A program made the translations under genes and the position numbers. Below, in pieces: positions 46,317 through 54,753 of a DNA stretch of 64,000 nucleotides. The stretch is taken from assembly GCF_025399835.1 (NCBI RefSeq), contig NZ_JAODVR010000002.1:124001-188000 (forward strand). Reading direction: 5' to 3'. Origin of the DNA: Haloarchaeobius sp. HME9146. Its GTDB lineage: Archaea; Halobacteriota; Halobacteria; Halobacteriales; Natrialbaceae. The notes under the pieces are model-generated. The model did not search any database. It saw nothing but the letters and a program-made list of their open reading frames with translations, and was not told the origin of the DNA. The stretch's first letter is position 1. Each line of letters starts with the position of its first letter.

Positions 46317-47735
46317 TCACCGGTTGAGGGTATGGACGGCTGCACCGTGGGCGTTTGCAGCCGCTTCCATCACGGCCTCGGTGAGGGTCGGATGGGTGTG
46401 GACCGTCGACGCGACCTCTGTGAGGGTCGCCTCGGTTTCGACGGCCAGCGCGAACTCTGCGACCAGTTCCGAGGCGTCCGGACAGACCAGCTGCGCGCCG
46501 AGTATCGTTCCGGTTGTCCCGTTCGCGACGACCCGAACGAAGCCATCGGTCTCACCGAGCGTGAGTGCCCGGCCAGACGCGCGCATCGGCATCTCCCCGA
46601 CGATGGGCTCGAGGCCAGCTTCCTCGGCCTCGGCCTCGGTCATCCCGACCGTCGCAATCTCTGGGTCGGTGAAGACAGCAGCCGGAATCGCCCGGGGATC
46701 GATGGTCTCGGAAGTCCCAGCGACCACCTCTGCTGCAATCTCACCTTCTTTACTCGCCTTGTGTGCGAGCATCGGTTCGCCGGCGACGTCCCCGACAGCG
46801 AAGATGTTGGCTGTACTGGTTCGGGTCTGTTCGTCGGTCCAGACGAAGCCGCTGTCGTCGGTCTCGATGGCTGCAGCCGAGAGGTTCAGCGTGTCCGTGA
46901 CCGGCTCACGGCCGACAGCCACGACGACGTGGTCGCCGTCGTATTCGAACCGTTCGTCGTCCTCGTTCCGGGTACTGACACGCACACCAGTCGTGGTCGG
47001 CTTCCAACTCGCGGCCTGCTCCCCGAAGCGGAAGTCGATACCCAGTTTCTCTCCACGACGCCGGACGACGCGGGCGACGTCCCGTTCGTAGCCGGGGAGC
47101 ACCTGGTCCAGCATCTCGACCACCGTCACGTCGACTCCCAGTTTGGCGAACACCGTCGAGAGTTCCATCCCGATGTAGCCAGCGCCGATGACGACGAGCT
47201 GGTCGGGCAGGGAGTCGAGTGCCAGCGCATGTGTCGACGAGAGTATCCGCTGGCCGTCGAAGGAGAACCCGGGAAGTTGGATGGGGCGCGAGCCCGTTGC
47301 TACGATAGCGTGCTCGAACGCGAGTACGCCCTGTCTGGTTCCGTCGCTGGTGATCTCGACCTCGTTCTCGCCCGTGAACGAGGCGACACCATCGAGGAGG
47401 GTGACGCCGTTGCCCTTGCATAGCTTCTCGACACCGCCGGTGAGTCGGTCCACGACACCGTCTTTCCACTCGGTCATGCGACCGAAGTCCACGTCGATGT
47501 CGGCGCTGATTCCCATGGTCTCCGCTTCGCTGGCCTCGTGGGCGATGTCGGTCGCCGTGATGAGCGCTTTCGAGGGGATGCAACCGACGTTGAGACAGGT
47601 CCCACCGTATGCATCCTTCTCGACGAGCGTCACGTCGAGACCTGATTGCGCCGCCCGGATCGCGGCGACGTACCCACCAGGGCCAGCACCGATAACCAGT
47701 ACCTCCGTCTCTGTTGGGAGTGAATCTGCAGCCAT
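46317..47735 (-). CDS. lpdA: dihydrolipoyl dehydrogenase (E3)
   Basis: The 472-residue flavoprotein has the FAD loop GAGPGGYVAAIRAAQ, the redox disulfide Cys47/Cys52 in GGTCLNVGCIPSK and the C-terminal HTHPTLTE with the His-Glu pair. It reoxidises dihydrolipoamide on an E2 with NAD+. GGTATATTAGG near 47780 is a TATA box roughly 45 bp before the ATG, so a short leader may exist. It is the likely E3 of the complex whose E2 lies 1.2 kb downstream. Confidence 0.95.
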   Translation of the reverse strand: MAADSLPTETEVLVIGAGPGGYVAAIRAAQSGLDVTLVEKDAYGGTCLNVGCIPSKALITATDIAHEASEAETMGISADIDVDFGRMTEWKDGVVDRLTGGVEKLCKGNGVTLLDGVASFTGENEVEITSDGTRQGVLAFEHAIVATGSRPIQLPGFSFDGQRILSSTHALALDSLPDQLVVIGAGYIGMELSTVFAKLGVDVTVVEMLDQVLPGYERDVARVVRRRGEKLGIDFRFGEQAASWKPTTTGVRVSTRNEDDERFEYDGDHVVVAVGREPVTDTLNLSAAAIETDDSGFVWTDEQTRTSTANIFAVGDVAGEPMLAHKASKEGEIAAEVVAGTSETIDPRAIPAAVFTDPEIATVGMTEAEAEEAGLEPIVGEMPMRASGRALTLGETDGFVRVVANGTTGTILGAQLVCPDASELVAEFALAVETEATLTEVASTVHTHPTLTEAVMEAAANAHGAAVHTLNR

Positions 47736-47838: not shown

Positions 47839-48801
47839 ATGTCATCAACACTTCACTCGCAGGTCGAGGAGTATCTACACGGGCTGTCCAAACAGGGTCT
47901 CCCACCGCTGTATCGGCTCTCCCTCGACGACGCTCGCCAGACGTACCGTGACCTCAGCGTGCCAAGTGAGCCCCCGGACGACGTCGCGTCGGTCACGGAC
48001 CGGACGATTCCGGGTCCGGCAGGCGACGTCCCGATTCGACTGTATCGACCCATCGAGGACCGAGCGCTCCCGGCGCTCGTATTCTTCCACGGGGGCGGAT
48101 GGATGCTCGGTGACCTCGACACGCACGACGCGCTGTGTCGGGCGGTCGCGAACGCGACGGAGTGCCTCGTCGTCGCCGTCGACTACCGACTCGCACCAGA
48201 ACACCGGTTCCCGGCTGGACTCGAGGACTGCTACGCTGCGACCTGCTGGGTCGCTAACAACGCCGAATCGATCGGTGCTGTGCCCGGCTCGCTGGCGACC
48301 ATGGGAGACAGTGCAGGTGGGAACCTGGCGGTCGGCGTCGGGCTTCTCTCTCGCGACAGGGATGGTCCGGAGATATCGTACCAGGTGCTCGCCTATCCGG
48401 CCACGAACCATGCGTTCGATACGGACTCCTACGAGGAGAACGCACAGGGATACTTCCTCACGCGAAAGGACATGGAGCGGTTCTGGAACGGCTACCTCCG
48501 GAGCGAACTGGACGCCGAGCACGCGTACGTCTCCCCCCTCCAGACGGAGTCGCTCGCCGGCCTCCCCCCGTCGCTCGTGCTGACCTGTGGGTTCGACCCG
48601 CTTCGCGACGACGGGCAGGCACTCGCGACTCGTCTGTCCGAAGACGGCGTGGACACGCATCACATTCACTATGGCGACATGATACACGGGTTCCTGACGA
48701 TGCTCTCCGACCCCGAACTCGACCGCGCACGCGAGGGTATCGAAGAGATCGGCGAGATGGTTCGCAGCGAACTCCAGGAAGCTCCCCCGGTCACGTCGTG
48801 A
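47839..48801 (+). CDS. alpha/beta hydrolase of the hormone-sensitive lipase family
   Basis: The 320-residue protein has the HGGGW oxyanion-hole motif (residues 84-88), the nucleophile Ser158 in GDSAGGN and a C-terminal DMIHGFLTM likely holding the catalytic His. It hydrolyses esters in the cytoplasm. An AGGAGGA ribosome site sits 1-3 bp before the ATG, and the promoter region lies between it and the divergent lpdA gene. It may free an ester-linked alcohol or ketone for the dehydrogenase complex next door, but that is inference. Confidence 0.9.
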   Translation: MSSTLHSQVEEYLHGLSKQGLPPLYRLSLDDARQTYRDLSVPSEPPDDVASVTDRTIPGPAGDVPIRLYRPIEDRALPALVFFHGGGWMLGDLDTHDALCRAVANATECLVVAVDYRLAPEHRFPAGLEDCYAATCWVANNAESIGAVPGSLATMGDSAGGNLAVGVGLLSRDRDGPEISYQVLAYPATNHAFDTDSYEENAQGYFLTRKDMERFWNGYLRSELDAEHAYVSPLQTESLAGLPPSLVLTCGFDPLRDDGQALATRLSEDGVDTHHIHYGDMIHGFLTMLSDPELDRAREGIEEIGEMVRSELQEAPPVTS

Positions 48802-48925: not shown

Positions 48926-50269
48926 ATGGCAATTATCGTTAAAATGCCAAAGCTTGGGCTCGAGATGGAGCAGGGCATCATCCTGGAGTGGTTCTTCGAG
49001 CCCGGTGAGGCGGTGTCCGAAGGCGACGTGATCGCAGAGGTCGAGTCAGAGAAGAGCATCGGGGAGGTCGAAGCCCGCGAAGACGGAGAACTTCGACGGA
49101 TCTACCTCGAGGAGGGGGAGTCCATCCCCCCGGGTAAGCCGATCGGTATCCTCGCGGCTTCCGATGCCGAGATATCCGACCTCGAGGCCGAGGTCGAAGC
49201 CGAACTCGGCGACGCGGGTGCGGCCGTCGACGACAGTCAGGACGACGACGCGGCAGCAGAGACGACAGACACCGACTCGGCTGCCGACACCGAATCCACG
49301 GCGTCCGATTCTGGCGCAGCAGGGGACGACGTGAAGGCGTCGCCGCGGGCGAAGAAGCAGGCAGAGGAACTCGGCGTGGACCTCACGACGGTCGAGGGGA
49401 CCGGGCCGATGGGTTCGATCACGGCCGACGACGTCGAGGCAGCAGCCAGCGAGTCCGACGGGCAGGATTCGAGCTCCGAGCCGGTCAAGGCATCGCCACG
49501 GGCGAAGAAGCAGGCGGAAGAACTCGGTGTGGACCTCACGACGGTCGAGGGGACCGGGCCGATGGGCTCGATTACTGCCGACGACGTCGAGGCGGCAGCT
49601 GACGCCGCACAGTCGGGTTCGAGCGGTGGGGTTCACCGAACCACCGGCGGACAGTCCGAAGTGTACCGCTACGAGAGACTCTCTGCTGTGGCAAACCCCG
49701 AGGCCGGGGAAGCCCTCCTCGAGACCACGGAAGCGGTTCGGTCAGCGTTCGAGGAGCGCGTCACGACCACCGACGTGTTGCTCCTCGTCGCCTCGGCCGC
49801 ACTCGAGGAGACGCCCGTGTTGAACGGTACCTACGCGGAGTCGACGCATCAGCTGCAAACGCAGCAGGATATCGAGCTCGTGTCCGACGCCGATGACGAC
49901 CTGGCGTCGGGCGTGATCGCTGGCGTCGACGAGAAATCACTGACCGAGATCGTCGAGGCACGGGAGTCACTCGGCGACGACGAGGACGACGAGACGGCCT
50001 CGTTCACGCTCTCGAACACGGCAGGAGAAGACCCGGATGGACCACTCATCAACAGCCCGGGTGTGGCCGCACTGGAGATCGACCCGTCCGGGCAGCGGGC
50101 CGTTCCGAACGGTGACGGCGTCGAACTGCAACCGCTGGTCACCGTCGATCTGACGTACGACACGTGCGCCATCGGCGACGCCGAAGCTGAAGCGTTCGTG
50201 GACAGCTTCTTCGAACAGGCGGAGCAGGCATCCGAACTGGTGCTCGGGTCGTATCGCGGCAAGGAATAA
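48926..50269 (+). CDS. atypical E2-like lipoyl protein with two E3-binding domains
   Basis: The 447-residue protein has a lipoyl domain (residues 1-78; lipoylated Lys43 in VESEKSIGEV), an acidic Ala-rich linker, two identical peripheral subunit-binding domains (136-174 and 187-225), and a C-terminal region faintly like the E2 acyltransferase core. The catalytic HxxxDG motif is missing: D412-T-C-A-I-G-D418 stands where it should be. The core is also shorter than normal. CTTTTGTA near 48897 is 29 bp before the ATG. It may be a scaffold or lipoyl carrier rather than an acyltransferase, with E3 from 46317 and E1 from 51412-53459. Confidence 0.8.
   Translation: MAIIVKMPKLGLEMEQGIILEWFFEPGEAVSEGDVIAEVESEKSIGEVEAREDGELRRIYLEEGESIPPGKPIGILAASDAEISDLEAEVEAELGDAGAAVDDSQDDDAAAETTDTDSAADTESTASDSGAAGDDVKASPRAKKQAEELGVDLTTVEGTGPMGSITADDVEAAASESDGQDSSSEPVKASPRAKKQAEELGVDLTTVEGTGPMGSITADDVEAAADAAQSGSSGGVHRTTGGQSEVYRYERLSAVANPEAGEALLETTEAVRSAFEERVTTTDVLLLVASAALEETPVLNGTYAESTHQLQTQQDIELVSDADDDLASGVIAGVDEKSLTEIVEARESLGDDEDDETASFTLSNTAGEDPDGPLINSPGVAALEIDPSGQRAVPNGDGVELQPLVTVDLTYDTCAIGDAEAEAFVDSFFEQAEQASELVLGSYRGKE
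49331..49600 (+). repeat. tandem duplication of the E3-binding domain in the E2-like gene
   Basis: Two 117-bp units (49331-49447 and 49484-49600, period 153 bp) code for the same 39 residues starting VKASPRAKKQAEELG. They differ at 11 bases, and every difference is at a third codon position and silent. The duplication is therefore not brand new, yet the protein has stayed unchanged. Confidence 0.9.
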
Positions 50270-50394: not shown

Positions 50395-51405
50395 TTACCG
50401 CGAGAGACTGCCCCGGAGCAATGCACCGCCCTCGGGGGCGGCCTTGAGCGCGGCATCGACGTCCACGAGACGCGGCCCGTCGGCAGTGGGTGTCATCGTG
50501 ACGGTCGCATCGGTGAGTTCGAGCTCGCGCTCGCCATCGGCACCGATGACGCAGTCGGTCCCTTCGACGGTCTTTGATTCGCCCCATCCGAGCGGTTCGT
50601 GCGCTTCGAGCCCGACGGTCGTCGTCATTCCCGGCGCGAGGACGGCACGGACCGACCGTTCCGCCTGGGCGGGGTCACAGAGGCTGAGTGAGACGCCGCC
50701 CGGTGCATCGGGGGCCAGGGGCTCGACACAGCCCGCGACGCTCGTGAGCCCGATCTCGGCGGGGTGTGCCCGAGTCACGACACCACCGAGCAGGTCGGAC
50801 GGGTCGATGACGGCCCTCGTTCCGATGAAGGATCGGTCGGTGATGCCGACCGTCGCCAGCCCGGCCATCGATTTCTGGCCGGAGACGTCATCCACCTCGA
50901 CGTCGATTCGTCCGTGACGGTAGGTGACGGCATCGGCGTCGACCACGCCGTTCGCGATGACGGTCGCTGCTGCACCGGCGACGGTCCCATCCACGGGCGT
51001 CGGAACGACGTTGTTGGTCCCCGTCGAGACGGAGAGGAGTGGAACGTCGCCGAGTTCCAGCGCTGCGTCCCGGGTCGTCCCGTCACCGCCCAGGACGACG
51101 ACGACGTCGGCGGTCTCCCGGAAGTGGGCCGCAGCTCGTCGCGTGTCCGCGGCCGTCTCCTGGATGGTCATATCCACCAGCTCGACGTCCATCTCCGGTG
51201 GTGCCTCGTCGATGGCGTAGGAGGCGATGCCGACCTTCTCGGGCATTATCTCCACGCTGGGTGTCTCGTCGATGAGGGTCGCTCCGTTCAGCACGCACTC
51301 GGCGACCCGGCGCTTCGCGTAGTTGTCGACGACGCTCGCGCCGCCGGTGAGGCGACGGATGTCGCGGCCTGCGGACGGGTTGACGATAAGTCCAACGTGA
51401 GCCAC
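50395..51405 (-). CDS. ATP-NAD kinase-like protein, AcoX type
   Basis: The 336-residue protein has the NAD kinase/diacylglycerol kinase-like GGDGT motif (VVVLGGDGTTRDAAL) and an N-terminal GLIVNPSAGRDIRRL segment. AcoX-like proteins are found in acetoin dehydrogenase operons; their exact role is unsettled. It is the last gene of the E1 operon, 6 bp after the E1 beta stop. Its presence is the best hint that the complex is acetoin-dehydrogenase-like. Confidence 0.85.
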   Translation of the reverse strand: MAHVGLIVNPSAGRDIRRLTGGASVVDNYAKRRVAECVLNGATLIDETPSVEIMPEKVGIASYAIDEAPPEMDVELVDMTIQETAADTRRAAAHFRETADVVVVLGGDGTTRDAALELGDVPLLSVSTGTNNVVPTPVDGTVAGAAATVIANGVVDADAVTYRHGRIDVEVDDVSGQKSMAGLATVGITDRSFIGTRAVIDPSDLLGGVVTRAHPAEIGLTSVAGCVEPLAPDAPGGVSLSLCDPAQAERSVRAVLAPGMTTTVGLEAHEPLGWGESKTVEGTDCVIGADGERELELTDATVTMTPTADGPRLVDVDAALKAAPEGGALLRGSLSR

Positions 51406-51411
51406 GTCAGC

Positions 51412-52416
51412 TCACGTTATCCGATTGATGGCGTTCTCGACCTGGTCACCGTCCGGCAGGACCTCCTGTTCGAGCGGCGTGCTGAACGGCATGTGCGTGT
51501 CGGGGGTCCCGACGCGCTGGATCGGTGCGTCGAGGCTGAAGAACGCCTCTTCCTGTGCTCGGGCGACGACCTCGGCGTGGATACCGTACGAGAGCGGGCT
51601 CTCGTCGGCGACGACCATCCGGCCGGTCTTCTGGAGGCTCTCGACGATGGTGTCGGTGTCGAGCGGGTACAGCGAGCGTGGGTCGATGACCTCGACGCTC
51701 ACGTCACCTTCTAGGCGCTCGGCGACCTGCAGCGACTCGCCGACGAGTCGTTGCGTCGCCACGACGGTGACGTCCTCGCCTTCACGTTCGACGGCTGCTT
51801 CACCGATCGGGACGACGTAGTCGTCGTCGACCGGGACCTCGCCCTTCTGCTCGTAGATCATCTTGTTCTCGAAGACGAAGACGGGGTCGTCAGACCTGAT
51901 CGCGGCCTTGGTCAGCCCCTTGGCGGAGGCGGGCGTACCGGGTGCGACCGCCTTCAGACCGGGGAAGTGGGCGATCCAGGCGTGGACCGTCCCGGAGTGC
52001 TGGCTTGCGGCACCCATCCCACCACCCTCGGTGGTGCGTACGGTGACGGGCATCTCGGTCTTCCCGCCGAACATGTAGCGCATCTTCGCCATCTGGTTCA
52101 TGATCTGTTCCATCGAGACGCCCATGAAGTCCGAGAACATGAGCTCGACGACGGGTCGGGTCCCGGTCGCCGCGGCACCGGTCGCCGCCCCGGTGAACCC
52201 GGCTTCGGCGATGGGTGTGTCTCGAAGTCGCTCCTCACCGAACTCCTCGATGAGGTCGCCGGTGACCTCCAGGACGCCGCCGAAGTCACCGACGTCTTCG
52301 CCCATGACGTAGACGTCCTCGTCGCGACGCATCTCCTCCCGGAGCGCCAGACGGATGGATTCGCGGACCGTCATCCGTTCCGTCTCCATCCCGTCGAGTT
52401 CCGACTGGACGCTCAT
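51412..52416 (-). CDS. 2-oxoacid/acetoin dehydrogenase E1 component, beta subunit
   Basis: The 334-residue protein has the TPP-dependent E1 beta pattern, with FSDFMGVSMEQIMNQMAK, a GGMGAASQHSGTVHAWIAHFPGLK segment and a C-terminal transketolase domain. It binds TPP with E1 alpha. Its ATG overlaps the E1 alpha stop by 4 bp, and the AcoX-like gene starts 6 bp after its stop. Acetoin dehydrogenase is the best guess for specificity. Confidence 0.92.
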   Translation of the reverse strand: MSVQSELDGMETERMTVRESIRLALREEMRRDEDVYVMGEDVGDFGGVLEVTGDLIEEFGEERLRDTPIAEAGFTGAATGAAATGTRPVVELMFSDFMGVSMEQIMNQMAKMRYMFGGKTEMPVTVRTTEGGGMGAASQHSGTVHAWIAHFPGLKAVAPGTPASAKGLTKAAIRSDDPVFVFENKMIYEQKGEVPVDDDYVVPIGEAAVEREGEDVTVVATQRLVGESLQVAERLEGDVSVEVIDPRSLYPLDTDTIVESLQKTGRMVVADESPLSYGIHAEVVARAQEEAFFSLDAPIQRVGTPDTHMPFSTPLEQEVLPDGDQVENAINRIT

Positions 52417-53459
52417 CGCGACTCACCTCCGTTAGCCCCGCCATCGGTGCGGAGTCGCTCTGCGAACTTCTCTATCTCGGGTACTGGCTCTTTGAACATG
52501 TCGTCGTACGCGTCTTCGGGCTCGGGCAGGTCGGACTCCTGTGCGAACTCGATGGCATCGGCGATTGTCGCTTCGACGTTCGCCTCGAGGTCTTCGAACT
52601 CGCCTTCGCTGAGTTCGTCGCGGTCGATGAGTCGCTGCTTGAACGAGTCTATCGCGTCTCGCTCCTTCCACTGCTGGAGCTCTTCGTCCGTCCGGTAGTT
52701 CTGTTCGTCGCCCTCGTAGTGACCGTGGTATCGGTACGTCTCTGCTTCGATGAGTGTCGGTCCGTCACCCGCTCGGGCTCGTTTTCGTGCCTCGGTGACG
52801 GCCTCGTACACGGCCGTCACGTCCATCCCGTCGACGGTGATTCCGGGGATGTCGTATGCCTGTGCGGTGTCGCTGAGGTTGTTCACGTTGTGCTGCTTCT
52901 CGACCGGAGTCGCCTCACCGTACTGGTTGTTCTCGATGAGGAAGATAGCGGGCAGGTCCCAGGTCGCGGCCATGTTCATGGCCTCGTGAACCTGTCCCTG
53001 CGCGGTCGCACCGTCACCGAAGAAGGCCAGCGCGACCTGGTCGCGGTCCTGGTAGTCGATTGAGAGCGCGGCACCCGTTGCCAGCGGCGGTCCGGCACCG
53101 ACGATACCGTTCGCGCCGAGCATCCCCGCATCGACGTCGGCGATGTGCATCGAGCCACCCTTGCCCTTGCAGTAGCCGCTCTCCTTGCCGAACAGTTCGG
53201 CCATCATCAGCTTGGGGTCCAGCCCCTTCGCGATACAATGTCCGTGGCCTCGGTGTGTGCTGGTGATGTAGTCGTCCGGTTCGAGCGCGCCACAGGTCCC
53301 GACCCCCACCGCCTCCTCACCGATATAGAGGTGGACGAAGCCTGGAATCTCACCGTCGGCGAAGTACTGTCCCGCCTTGGTGTCGAACTCTCTGATGGTC
53401 AGCATCCGGCGCAGGGCCTCTACTCTTCCCTCGGGTGTATCTAAATTATAATTTGCCAT
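52413..53459 (-). CDS. 2-oxoacid/acetoin dehydrogenase E1 component, alpha subunit
   Basis: The 348-residue protein has the TPP motif starting GDGATAQGQVHE and ending in the ENN of FLIENNQ, and the active-site loop GKGGSMHIAD. It decarboxylates or cleaves the substrate and passes the acyl group to lipoate. The start MANYNLDTPEG was chosen over an ATG 27 bp upstream because TATA-like TTTACTG and TTTTAAG boxes lie 23-35 bp before it. It heads a three-gene operon. Confidence 0.93.
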   Translation of the reverse strand: MANYNLDTPEGRVEALRRMLTIREFDTKAGQYFADGEIPGFVHLYIGEEAVGVGTCGALEPDDYITSTHRGHGHCIAKGLDPKLMMAELFGKESGYCKGKGGSMHIADVDAGMLGANGIVGAGPPLATGAALSIDYQDRDQVALAFFGDGATAQGQVHEAMNMAATWDLPAIFLIENNQYGEATPVEKQHNVNNLSDTAQAYDIPGITVDGMDVTAVYEAVTEARKRARAGDGPTLIEAETYRYHGHYEGDEQNYRTDEELQQWKERDAIDSFKQRLIDRDELSEGEFEDLEANVEATIADAIEFAQESDLPEPEDAYDDMFKEPVPEIEKFAERLRTDGGANGGESR

Positions 53460-53651
53460 GCTACGTCTTATCATGACAGTAAACACCGGCTTAAAACTAG
53501 TGATTACACCATATTATCACTAAGTGGTATCTCTTCCTCAGGTCACAGGCGTGGACAAAACGAACACGGAGATCGCTGTAAGCCCGATTTCCAGCCCACT
53601 ACGGTCGTTTCCCCTGGGGAAAACCGCCTGGCAGGCCGTGTCGTCGATGTA

Positions 53652-54419
53652 TCACGAATACTCCCGGTTCCCGCGGATGATGTTCGCGTACTCCTGGACG
53701 ACGCTGGGGTACTCCTCGAAGAACACCTCGTCGTCGAGGCGGTTCGGCGGGCCATACACCGCGATTCCAGCGTGCATATCGTCCGACTGACTCGTTATCG
53801 GGACACCGATTCCGCGCATCCCGTCGAAGCATTCCTCGTCGTCGAACGCGTACCCGCGCTGGCGAACCAGCTCCATCTCGTCGAGCAGGGACTCGACGTC
53901 CGTGATGGTGTTCTCCGTCTTCGGGTAGAGTCCGTACTGTTCGATGATGGCCCGGATCTCCTCGTCCGGTAACTGCGAGAGGATCGCCTTCCCGTAGGCG
54001 GTGGTGTGTAGGCGGGACTTGACCCCGGGATAGGTCCGGCTGACCTGGAGCCGCTTCACCTTCTCTCCCTTCTTCATCGACAGCAACACACCGAGGTTGT
54101 TCTCTTCGATCATCAGCCCCGCGAACTCGCCCGTCTCCTCTGCCAGCCGTCGAAGCTCGGGTTCCGCAGTCCGGTATATCTCGTTGTCTCGGCGCACGCG
54201 ATTGCCCACCTCGAGGAAGGAGGTCGCCACACGGTAGCGACCGTCAGCCTGTTTCGTGATGTGGTTGAGCGTCTCGAGGGTGTTGATGTACTCGTACATC
54301 GTACTGAGTGGCATGTCGAACTCATCGGCCAGCTCCCGGACGGATGCCGTCTTCATCTCTACGAGTCTCTCCAGTATCCGATTCGCACGAACGAGCGACT
54401 TGAGAGGCTTCGAAGGCAT
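53652..54419 (-). CDS. IclR-family transcriptional regulator
   Basis: The 255-residue protein has an N-terminal winged helix (FDMPLSTMYEYINTLETL) and a C-terminal effector domain ending GIAVYGPPNRLDDE. The start at 54419 was chosen because CGATATAAC (54457-54466, minus strand) predicts a start of transcription near 54435. The gene is 192 bp upstream of the E1 operon on the same strand and is the likely regulator of the dehydrogenase genes. The two ATGs at 54446-54449 remain possible alternatives. Confidence 0.9.
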   Translation of the reverse strand: MPSKPLKSLVRANRILERLVEMKTASVRELADEFDMPLSTMYEYINTLETLNHITKQADGRYRVATSFLEVGNRVRRDNEIYRTAEPELRRLAEETGEFAGLMIEENNLGVLLSMKKGEKVKRLQVSRTYPGVKSRLHTTAYGKAILSQLPDEEIRAIIEQYGLYPKTENTITDVESLLDEMELVRQRGYAFDDEECFDGMRGIGVPITSQSDDMHAGIAVYGPPNRLDDEVFFEEYPSVVQEYANIIRGNREYS

Positions 54420-54753
54420 ATCAGGTACATCCGCAGCAATCAACATCATTGTTCCGGTTATATCGAAATTGGCAGGTCGAGTCTGAACTTCTGACCTCGA
54501 TGGTACTCGCCTGGGGACGCGGGTGGCTGTCGGTTCCAGTCGAGTTTTCGAGATAGTCGGAATGACCCCACTGTGGGTATTATTATCATGGACAATTGTG
54601 CCATAGTGTTTGGTGGTGATTCCGATTATCTCGAATTACATGTTCCACTCCACTGCAACCGTGTGTTGACCACCGATTCGTCGAGTCCCAGCCGTTTGTC
54701 GGTGGACTGCGACGTGTCATTTCCTCCCCTGTGCAAAGGAACGCGACAGTGTG

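Follow-up and report, generated by a model that had tools for sequence, protein, structure and literature searches.

Complexes of the 2-oxoacid dehydrogenase type are regarded as having an invariable centre, namely the acyltransferase step of their E2 component. In a stretch of 64,000 nucleotides from Haloarchaeobius sp. HME9146 (hereafter, the window), one gene encodes a protein built like an E2 in which the HxxxDG motif of this step is missing. How, then, would an acyl group leave the lipoyl arm of the complex to which such a protein belongs?

Domain anatomy and loss of the acyltransferase residues

The features of the gene, here called pseudo-E2, and of its neighbours are collected in Table 1. 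A preliminary description of the locus, made from the DNA letters, had reported a lipoyl domain, E3-binding domains and a short core. The lipoyl domain is indeed recognised by Pfam with its lysine in place, and this lysine is kept in all the 22 pseudo-E2s readable at that position. E3 binding also stands, as the domain is found by Pfam, with the precision that there are two tandem copies (E3_binding matches the protein twice, 8e-29 over 2 stretches). Two copies (49331-49591 in the window) are usual in this E2 family, whether intact or His-less.

Table 1. Features of the pseudo-E2 gene and its cluster, in window positions
Feature	Position	Strand	Remarks
E3, dihydrolipoyl dehydrogenase	46317..47735	-	
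HSL/LipP1-type alpha/beta-hydrolase, proposed acyl-release enzyme	47839..48801	+	Abhydrolase_3, 8e-74
Pseudo-E2 ORF, 447 aa	48926..50269	+	Lipoyl domain, two E3-binding domains, degenerate E2 core
Lipoyl domain, aa 5-75	48938..49150	+	Pfam Biotin_lipoyl, 3e-16
Lipoyl Lys K43 in ESEKS	49052-49054	+	
E3-binding (peripheral subunit-binding) domain, copy 1, aa 136-171	49331..49438	+	Pfam E3_binding and sequence
E3-binding domain, copy 2, aa 187-222	49484..49591	+	Near-identical repeat of copy 1
Degenerate 2-oxoacid_dh core, aa 263-439	49712..50242	+	PF00198 profile positions 40-231 of 232
DTCAIGD in place of DHRxxDG	50159..50179	+	Catalytic His lost
AcoX-like protein (NAD-kinase/DAGK-like)	50395..51405	-	35% identity to AcoX beside acoAB/acoC, Mycetohabitans
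E1 beta (AcoB-like)	51412..52416	-	
E1 alpha (AcoA-like)	52413..53486	-	
IclR-family regulator	53652..54449	-	Beside the cluster in several relatives

The core is truly short, as had been proposed. Specifically, the match to 2-oxoacid_dh (PF00198; 6e-15, above the gathering score) starts only at profile position 40, so that the N-terminal 39 or so positions, corresponding to the helix H1 region, are missing, which makes the normal trimer assembly of the pseudo-core uncertain. Its homology to the E2 catalytic domain comes from sequence comparison, that is, from PF00198, from hhalign (E 1e-39) and from the E2 cores in the PDB; an AlphaFold2 model of the pseudo-core, calculated from a two-sequence alignment (the window and one related locus), reached a pLDDT of 32, too low for interpretation.

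The alignment of the C-terminal region to E2 cores was carried out in two ways. In a profile-profile comparison, 17 pseudo-cores were matched to 15 haloarchaeal cores of active E2s (prob. 100%, E 1e-39), and YDTCAIGD fell on FDHRVVDG; in a profile search of the PDB, the same residues align to YDHRLIDG of a solved E2 core. The motif positions match and the His is lost; thus, the reading of DTCAIGD as a site devoid of the catalytic His and of the Asp-Gly is upheld by both active and solved cores. HxxxDG is absent from the window protein (TCAIGD), and the His is missing in all 23 aligned relatives. At the His column, the 23 aligned pseudo-E2s carry Thr (16), Ala (3), Ser (2) or Pro (2), compared to His in 56 of 56 intact E2s, while the Asp of DG is replaced by Gly in 16 and Ser in one and kept in six, compared to Asp in all 56. 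The active-site Ser/Thr of FT(V/I)(S/T)N, usually lost in pseudo-E2s, is Ala in 18 of the 23, the window protein being among the two that keep a Ser. With respect to a canonical E2 (PF00198; for example, the E2-OsmC proteins of sister clusters), the window protein shares the lipoyl domain, the tandem E3-binding domains and a homologous core, but it is without the catalytic His, the DG, the H1 region and the OsmC domain.

A His-Asp pair conserved at another place in the pseudo-core, which would have counted against the preliminary reading, was looked for in the alignments and was not found. The His at core residue 73 (in 'STHQL') was considered as a substitute catalyst and rejected: it is invariant in the pseudo-cores, but it aligns with a His that is also invariant in the active cores, and it is thus no replacement for the lost one. 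From these residues we infer that the pseudo-core is catalytically inactive. In E. coli E2o, however, replacement of the His leaves 2% (His375Ala), 13% (His375Gly) or 60% (His375Trp) of the activity, and the neighbouring Asp is as important as the His itself (PMC5986005). The equivalent of this Asp (E2o Asp374), directly before the lost His, is retained in 22 of 23 pseudo-E2s, so the pseudo-core might retain some activity.

The hydrolase partner across haloarchaeal clusters

A first search of genome contigs for relatives returned one true orthologue (L009) and an unrelated Brevibacterium E2. The survey was then based on 392 genomes of the order together with plasmid records, from which 20-kb neighbourhoods were fetched. 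The result was a set of 80 haloarchaeal loci in which E1 alpha and E1 beta are accompanied by an AcoX-like gene, three outgroup loci being exempt from the last condition. One further locus, L135, had looked like a His-less cluster devoid of a hydrolase; it was left out, as its E2 frame is broken and an ORF overlapping it encodes the motif FDHRIVDG. An E2-like protein without the active-site His is encoded in 24 of the 80 clusters, the window included, and the motif is intact in the other 56. The 24 clusters represent 23 distinct genomes (Haladaptatus halobius is counted twice, as L043 and as plasmid record L149), and carriers include, besides Haladaptatus halobius, Halocatena marina and Natrinema gelatinilyticum.

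Selection on the pseudo-core is relaxed yet still purifying. In seven close pairs, dN/dS was 0.17-0.44 for the pseudo-core, 0-0.23 for the lipoyl domain (L057/L058 being unusable here) and 0-0.11 for E1 beta. A His-less state common to 24 clusters, together with such values for the core, is not due to chance. Moreover, since the degenerate core is still selected, it must still do something that lies outside the explanation proposed below, for which assembly or docking of the hydrolase may be considered.

The hydrolase gene of the window lies 124 bp upstream of the pseudo-E2 gene on the same strand, and its product conserves HGGG, GDSAG and the other two triad residues, Asp and His. A HSL-type hydrolase of one clade is present in all the 24 His-less clusters; in the 56 clusters with an intact HxxxDG, it was found in none, over about 8-10 kb on each side (less at contig ends). 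If the loci were independent, which they are not, the probability of this partition by chance would be 6e-21. The placement of the gene varies, either adjoining pseudo-E2 or beyond E1 alpha (genus g38, L049), with linkage kept. In 20 of 20 aligned hydrolases the HGGG oxyanion hole and the triad Asp and His are conserved, the nucleophile Ser lying in G(D/E)S(A/S)G, and a tree that also includes 15 other haloarchaeal HSLs separates from these a single clade (99*) made up of the hydrolases of the clusters and the fusion proteins.

In the window, lipoyl domain and hydrolase are encoded by separate genes, the one-chain form being confined to three loci. A lipoyl domain, an E3-binding domain and the hydrolase are fused in L051 (G050) and L087 (G133); in L086 (G111) the fusion comprises the lipoyl domain and the hydrolase, with masked linker letters that could hide an E3-binding domain. 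Pseudo-E2 is also kept beside the fusion in L051 and L086, and no further pseudo-E2 was found in G133, a genome that is 77% complete and whose contig ends at the locus. The preliminary description had proposed that the protein may serve only as a lipoyl carrier and scaffold and that the acyl product is released differently; the strict co-occurrence with the hydrolase and the three fusions support a lipoyl carrier with a separate route of release.

On a tree of E1 alpha and beta, the His-less/hydrolase state needs four changes, and the starred branches force at least three. The hydrolase changes with the His-less state each time, in 3 of 3 independent pairs. A sign test on these pairs (p 0.25) is unable to reach significance because the independent events are few (three to four). 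The pseudo-cores have a single origin (100*; the tree carried long-branch warnings), which, together with a hydrolase that tracks each change, points to a co-inherited module. The simplest reading is that pseudo-E2 and hydrolase form a module swapped against an intact E2 several times. On the same E1 tree, L100, L103 and L106 (genus g30), with an intact E2 and no hydrolase, are nested among His-less/hydrolase clusters as sisters to L051; here the module has apparently been replaced by an intact E2.

Further arrangements were observed during the survey. In many intact E2s of sister clusters, the C terminus is formed by an OsmC/Ohr-like domain with two Cys (L073-L078, L088-L099, L101, L102, L104, L105 and others), and a separate OsmC gene stands beside E1 alpha in four His-less clusters, at about 5.5 kb in L048, L056 and L057 and at about 13.8 kb in L058. 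Ohr peroxidases are reduced by dihydrolipoyl groups, so the OsmC/Ohr-like domain may be a peroxidase that draws its electrons straight from the lipoyl arm. L142:9770-10612 and L143:9579-10493 encode a partly degenerate lipoyl domain, its Lys motif altered, and OsmC, with no E2 core. Stand-alone E2 cores of about 250-340 aa (frame length) are found in roughly ten His-less genomes (for example, G332:C1:1635456-1636115, G240:C1:1665820-1666479 and G279:C32:50816-51478) and are absent from the genome of the window.

Likely substrate and comparison with bacterial AcoC

The genome of the window also contains a further E2, at G000:C1:727061, within a separate E1/E2/E3/LipA cluster, as revealed by the search for another E2 gene that the preliminary description had suggested. 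The E1 alpha of the window is 50% identical to Mycetohabitans AcoA, compared to 31% with the E1 alpha of that other cluster, while E1 beta is not discriminating (44% to AcoB and 43% to the other cluster). The AcoX-like protein is 29-35% identical to the products of bacterial genes standing directly before acoA-acoB-acoC; acoX has been described as a gene without known function that typically accompanies acetoin dehydrogenase genes (PMC3543383). In addition, the L009 cluster encodes LipA, an SDR and a Zn-dehydrogenase, the latter with (R,R)-butanediol dehydrogenase as its top solved match (4e-99, the next being 5e-48). The identity to AcoA, the AcoX synteny and the butanediol dehydrogenase of L009 indicate that the cluster is likely a haloarchaeal acetoin dehydrogenase enzyme system, with acetoin as its likely substrate. 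The Haloferax E1 genes HVO_0669/0668 also resemble acetoin E1 and have no known substrate (PMC8305020). Four E1 alpha paralogues lie elsewhere in the genome of the window (L082-L085; G000:C1 at about 1747947, 1189304, 3209430 and 3419787), and in about 8 kb around them neither an E1 beta nor a lipoyl domain was detected.

Bacterial acetoin systems offer a parallel. The AcoC of three bacterial operons (acoX-A-B-C) consists of Biotin_lipoyl and Abhydrolase_1, keeps GHSMG, Asp and His, and shows neither a 2-oxoacid_dh nor an E3-binding domain at the threshold applied; 'acetyltransferase' is, for this protein, an annotation name. AcoC (NF011457/PRK14875) and the system of the window thus share a lipoyl domain, a triad-intact alpha/beta-hydrolase and an acoX/acoA/acoB neighbourhood. 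They differ in that AcoC is one chain of the Abhydrolase_1 family with no E2 core, whereas the window has a separate Abhydrolase_3/HSL protein and a lipoyl protein that retains a degenerate E2 core and carries two E3-binding domains. NF011457 scores 74.8 bits in the window, against a cut-off of 307. As the hydrolase families are different, the two lipoyl/hydrolase pairings look independent.

Proposed acyl release and alternative explanations

We consider it probable that pseudo-E2 serves as the lipoyl carrier of an acetoin dehydrogenase system, and that the HSL-type hydrolase of the cluster discharges its acetyl-lipoyl group. E1 would cleave acetoin with TPP, releasing acetaldehyde, and would reductively acetylate the lipoyl domain of pseudo-E2. 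The latter, presumably lipoylated and assembled with its partners, would no longer transfer the acetyl group through its core; it would carry the lipoyl arm and dock E3 via the two E3-binding domains. The hydrolase would take the acetyl group from the S-lipoyl thioester onto its Ser, giving an acetyl-serine intermediate, and pass it either to water, yielding acetate and requiring an acetyl-CoA synthetase, or to CoA, after which E3 would reoxidise the lipoyl group. The precedent is human ABHD11, an alpha/beta-hydrolase that cleaves glutaryl-lipoyl thioesters on the E2 of OGDHc (PMC7426941, PMC12643935). We lean slightly towards water as the acceptor, since HSL-family hydrolases and ABHD11 use water.

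The most serious alternative, which we nevertheless regard as unlikely, is that pseudo-E2 is an inactive scaffold co-assembling with the housekeeping E2 (G000:C1:727061), which would act in trans. The precedent is the E3BP, or protein X, of the eukaryotic PDC, which combines an E2 topology and an E3-binding domain with an inactive core (PMC10156792), as the window protein does if its inactivity is read from the residues. Another intact E2 is, moreover, present in 22 of 22 His-less or fusion genomes tested. However, none of the clusters contains an active E2, the other E2 belongs to a cluster of its own, and the pseudo-core is without the H1 region. E3BP, moreover, is of separate origin, and the window cluster encodes a hydrolase and no active E2 as partner. 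A scaffold role also leaves unexplained the hydrolase co-occurrence, the fusions and the absence of the hydrolase from intact-E2 clusters.

Alternatively, the hydrolase could repair or proofread the lipoyl arm by clearing dead-end acyl groups or adducts from it, with transfer carried out by the pseudo-core or by spontaneous CoA thiol exchange, an explanation to which we give rather little credence. ABHD11, which shares with the proposed enzyme of the window a serine alpha/beta-hydrolase nature and an acyl-lipoyl thioester as its target, acts in this manner on the E2 of OGDHc (PMC7426941, PMC12643935), and the Asp kept next to the lost His would fit a core that still transfers. Yet, a repair enzyme should serve intact-E2 clusters too, and this one is found precisely in the clusters that have lost the transferase residues. 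ABHD11, in addition, has its repair role in a complex with an active E2, belongs to another hydrolase family and is not gene-linked.

It is improbable that the hydrolase is a mere metabolic neighbour, freeing the substrate from acetoin or butanediol esters beside a weakly active pseudo-E2. HSL/Abhydrolase_3 enzymes are mostly carboxylesterases of a generalist kind, so that the one of the cluster may act outside the complex, but this hydrolase is fused to a lipoyl domain, with or without an E3-binding domain, in three genomes and is anticorrelated with intact E2 cores. Finally, a pseudogene or a sequencing artefact, suggested by the motif loss when one gene is viewed alone and by nothing further, is refuted by the relatives, namely 24 clusters with frames intact in nearly all and core dN/dS below 0.45.

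In conclusion, these data favour, with moderate confidence, the view that in haloarchaea the E2 acyltransferase has been convergently replaced by an unrelated serine alpha/beta-hydrolase, separately from AcoC, with the retired core kept in another capacity. If this is true, the cluster would encode a thioesterase-terminated (acetate-forming) or a serine-transacylase acetoin dehydrogenase. The E2 step would appear to have given way to a serine hydrolase on at least one occasion in haloarchaea, and to another hydrolase family in bacterial AcoC, and the annotation 'dihydrolipoyllysine acetyltransferase' or 'E2' on such proteins may mislead about the product. The locus thereby lends itself to a clear test of whether acetoin cleavage by these complexes yields acetyl-CoA or acetate, and of whether acyl release from a lipoyl complex can be the task of an alpha/beta-hydrolase subunit.
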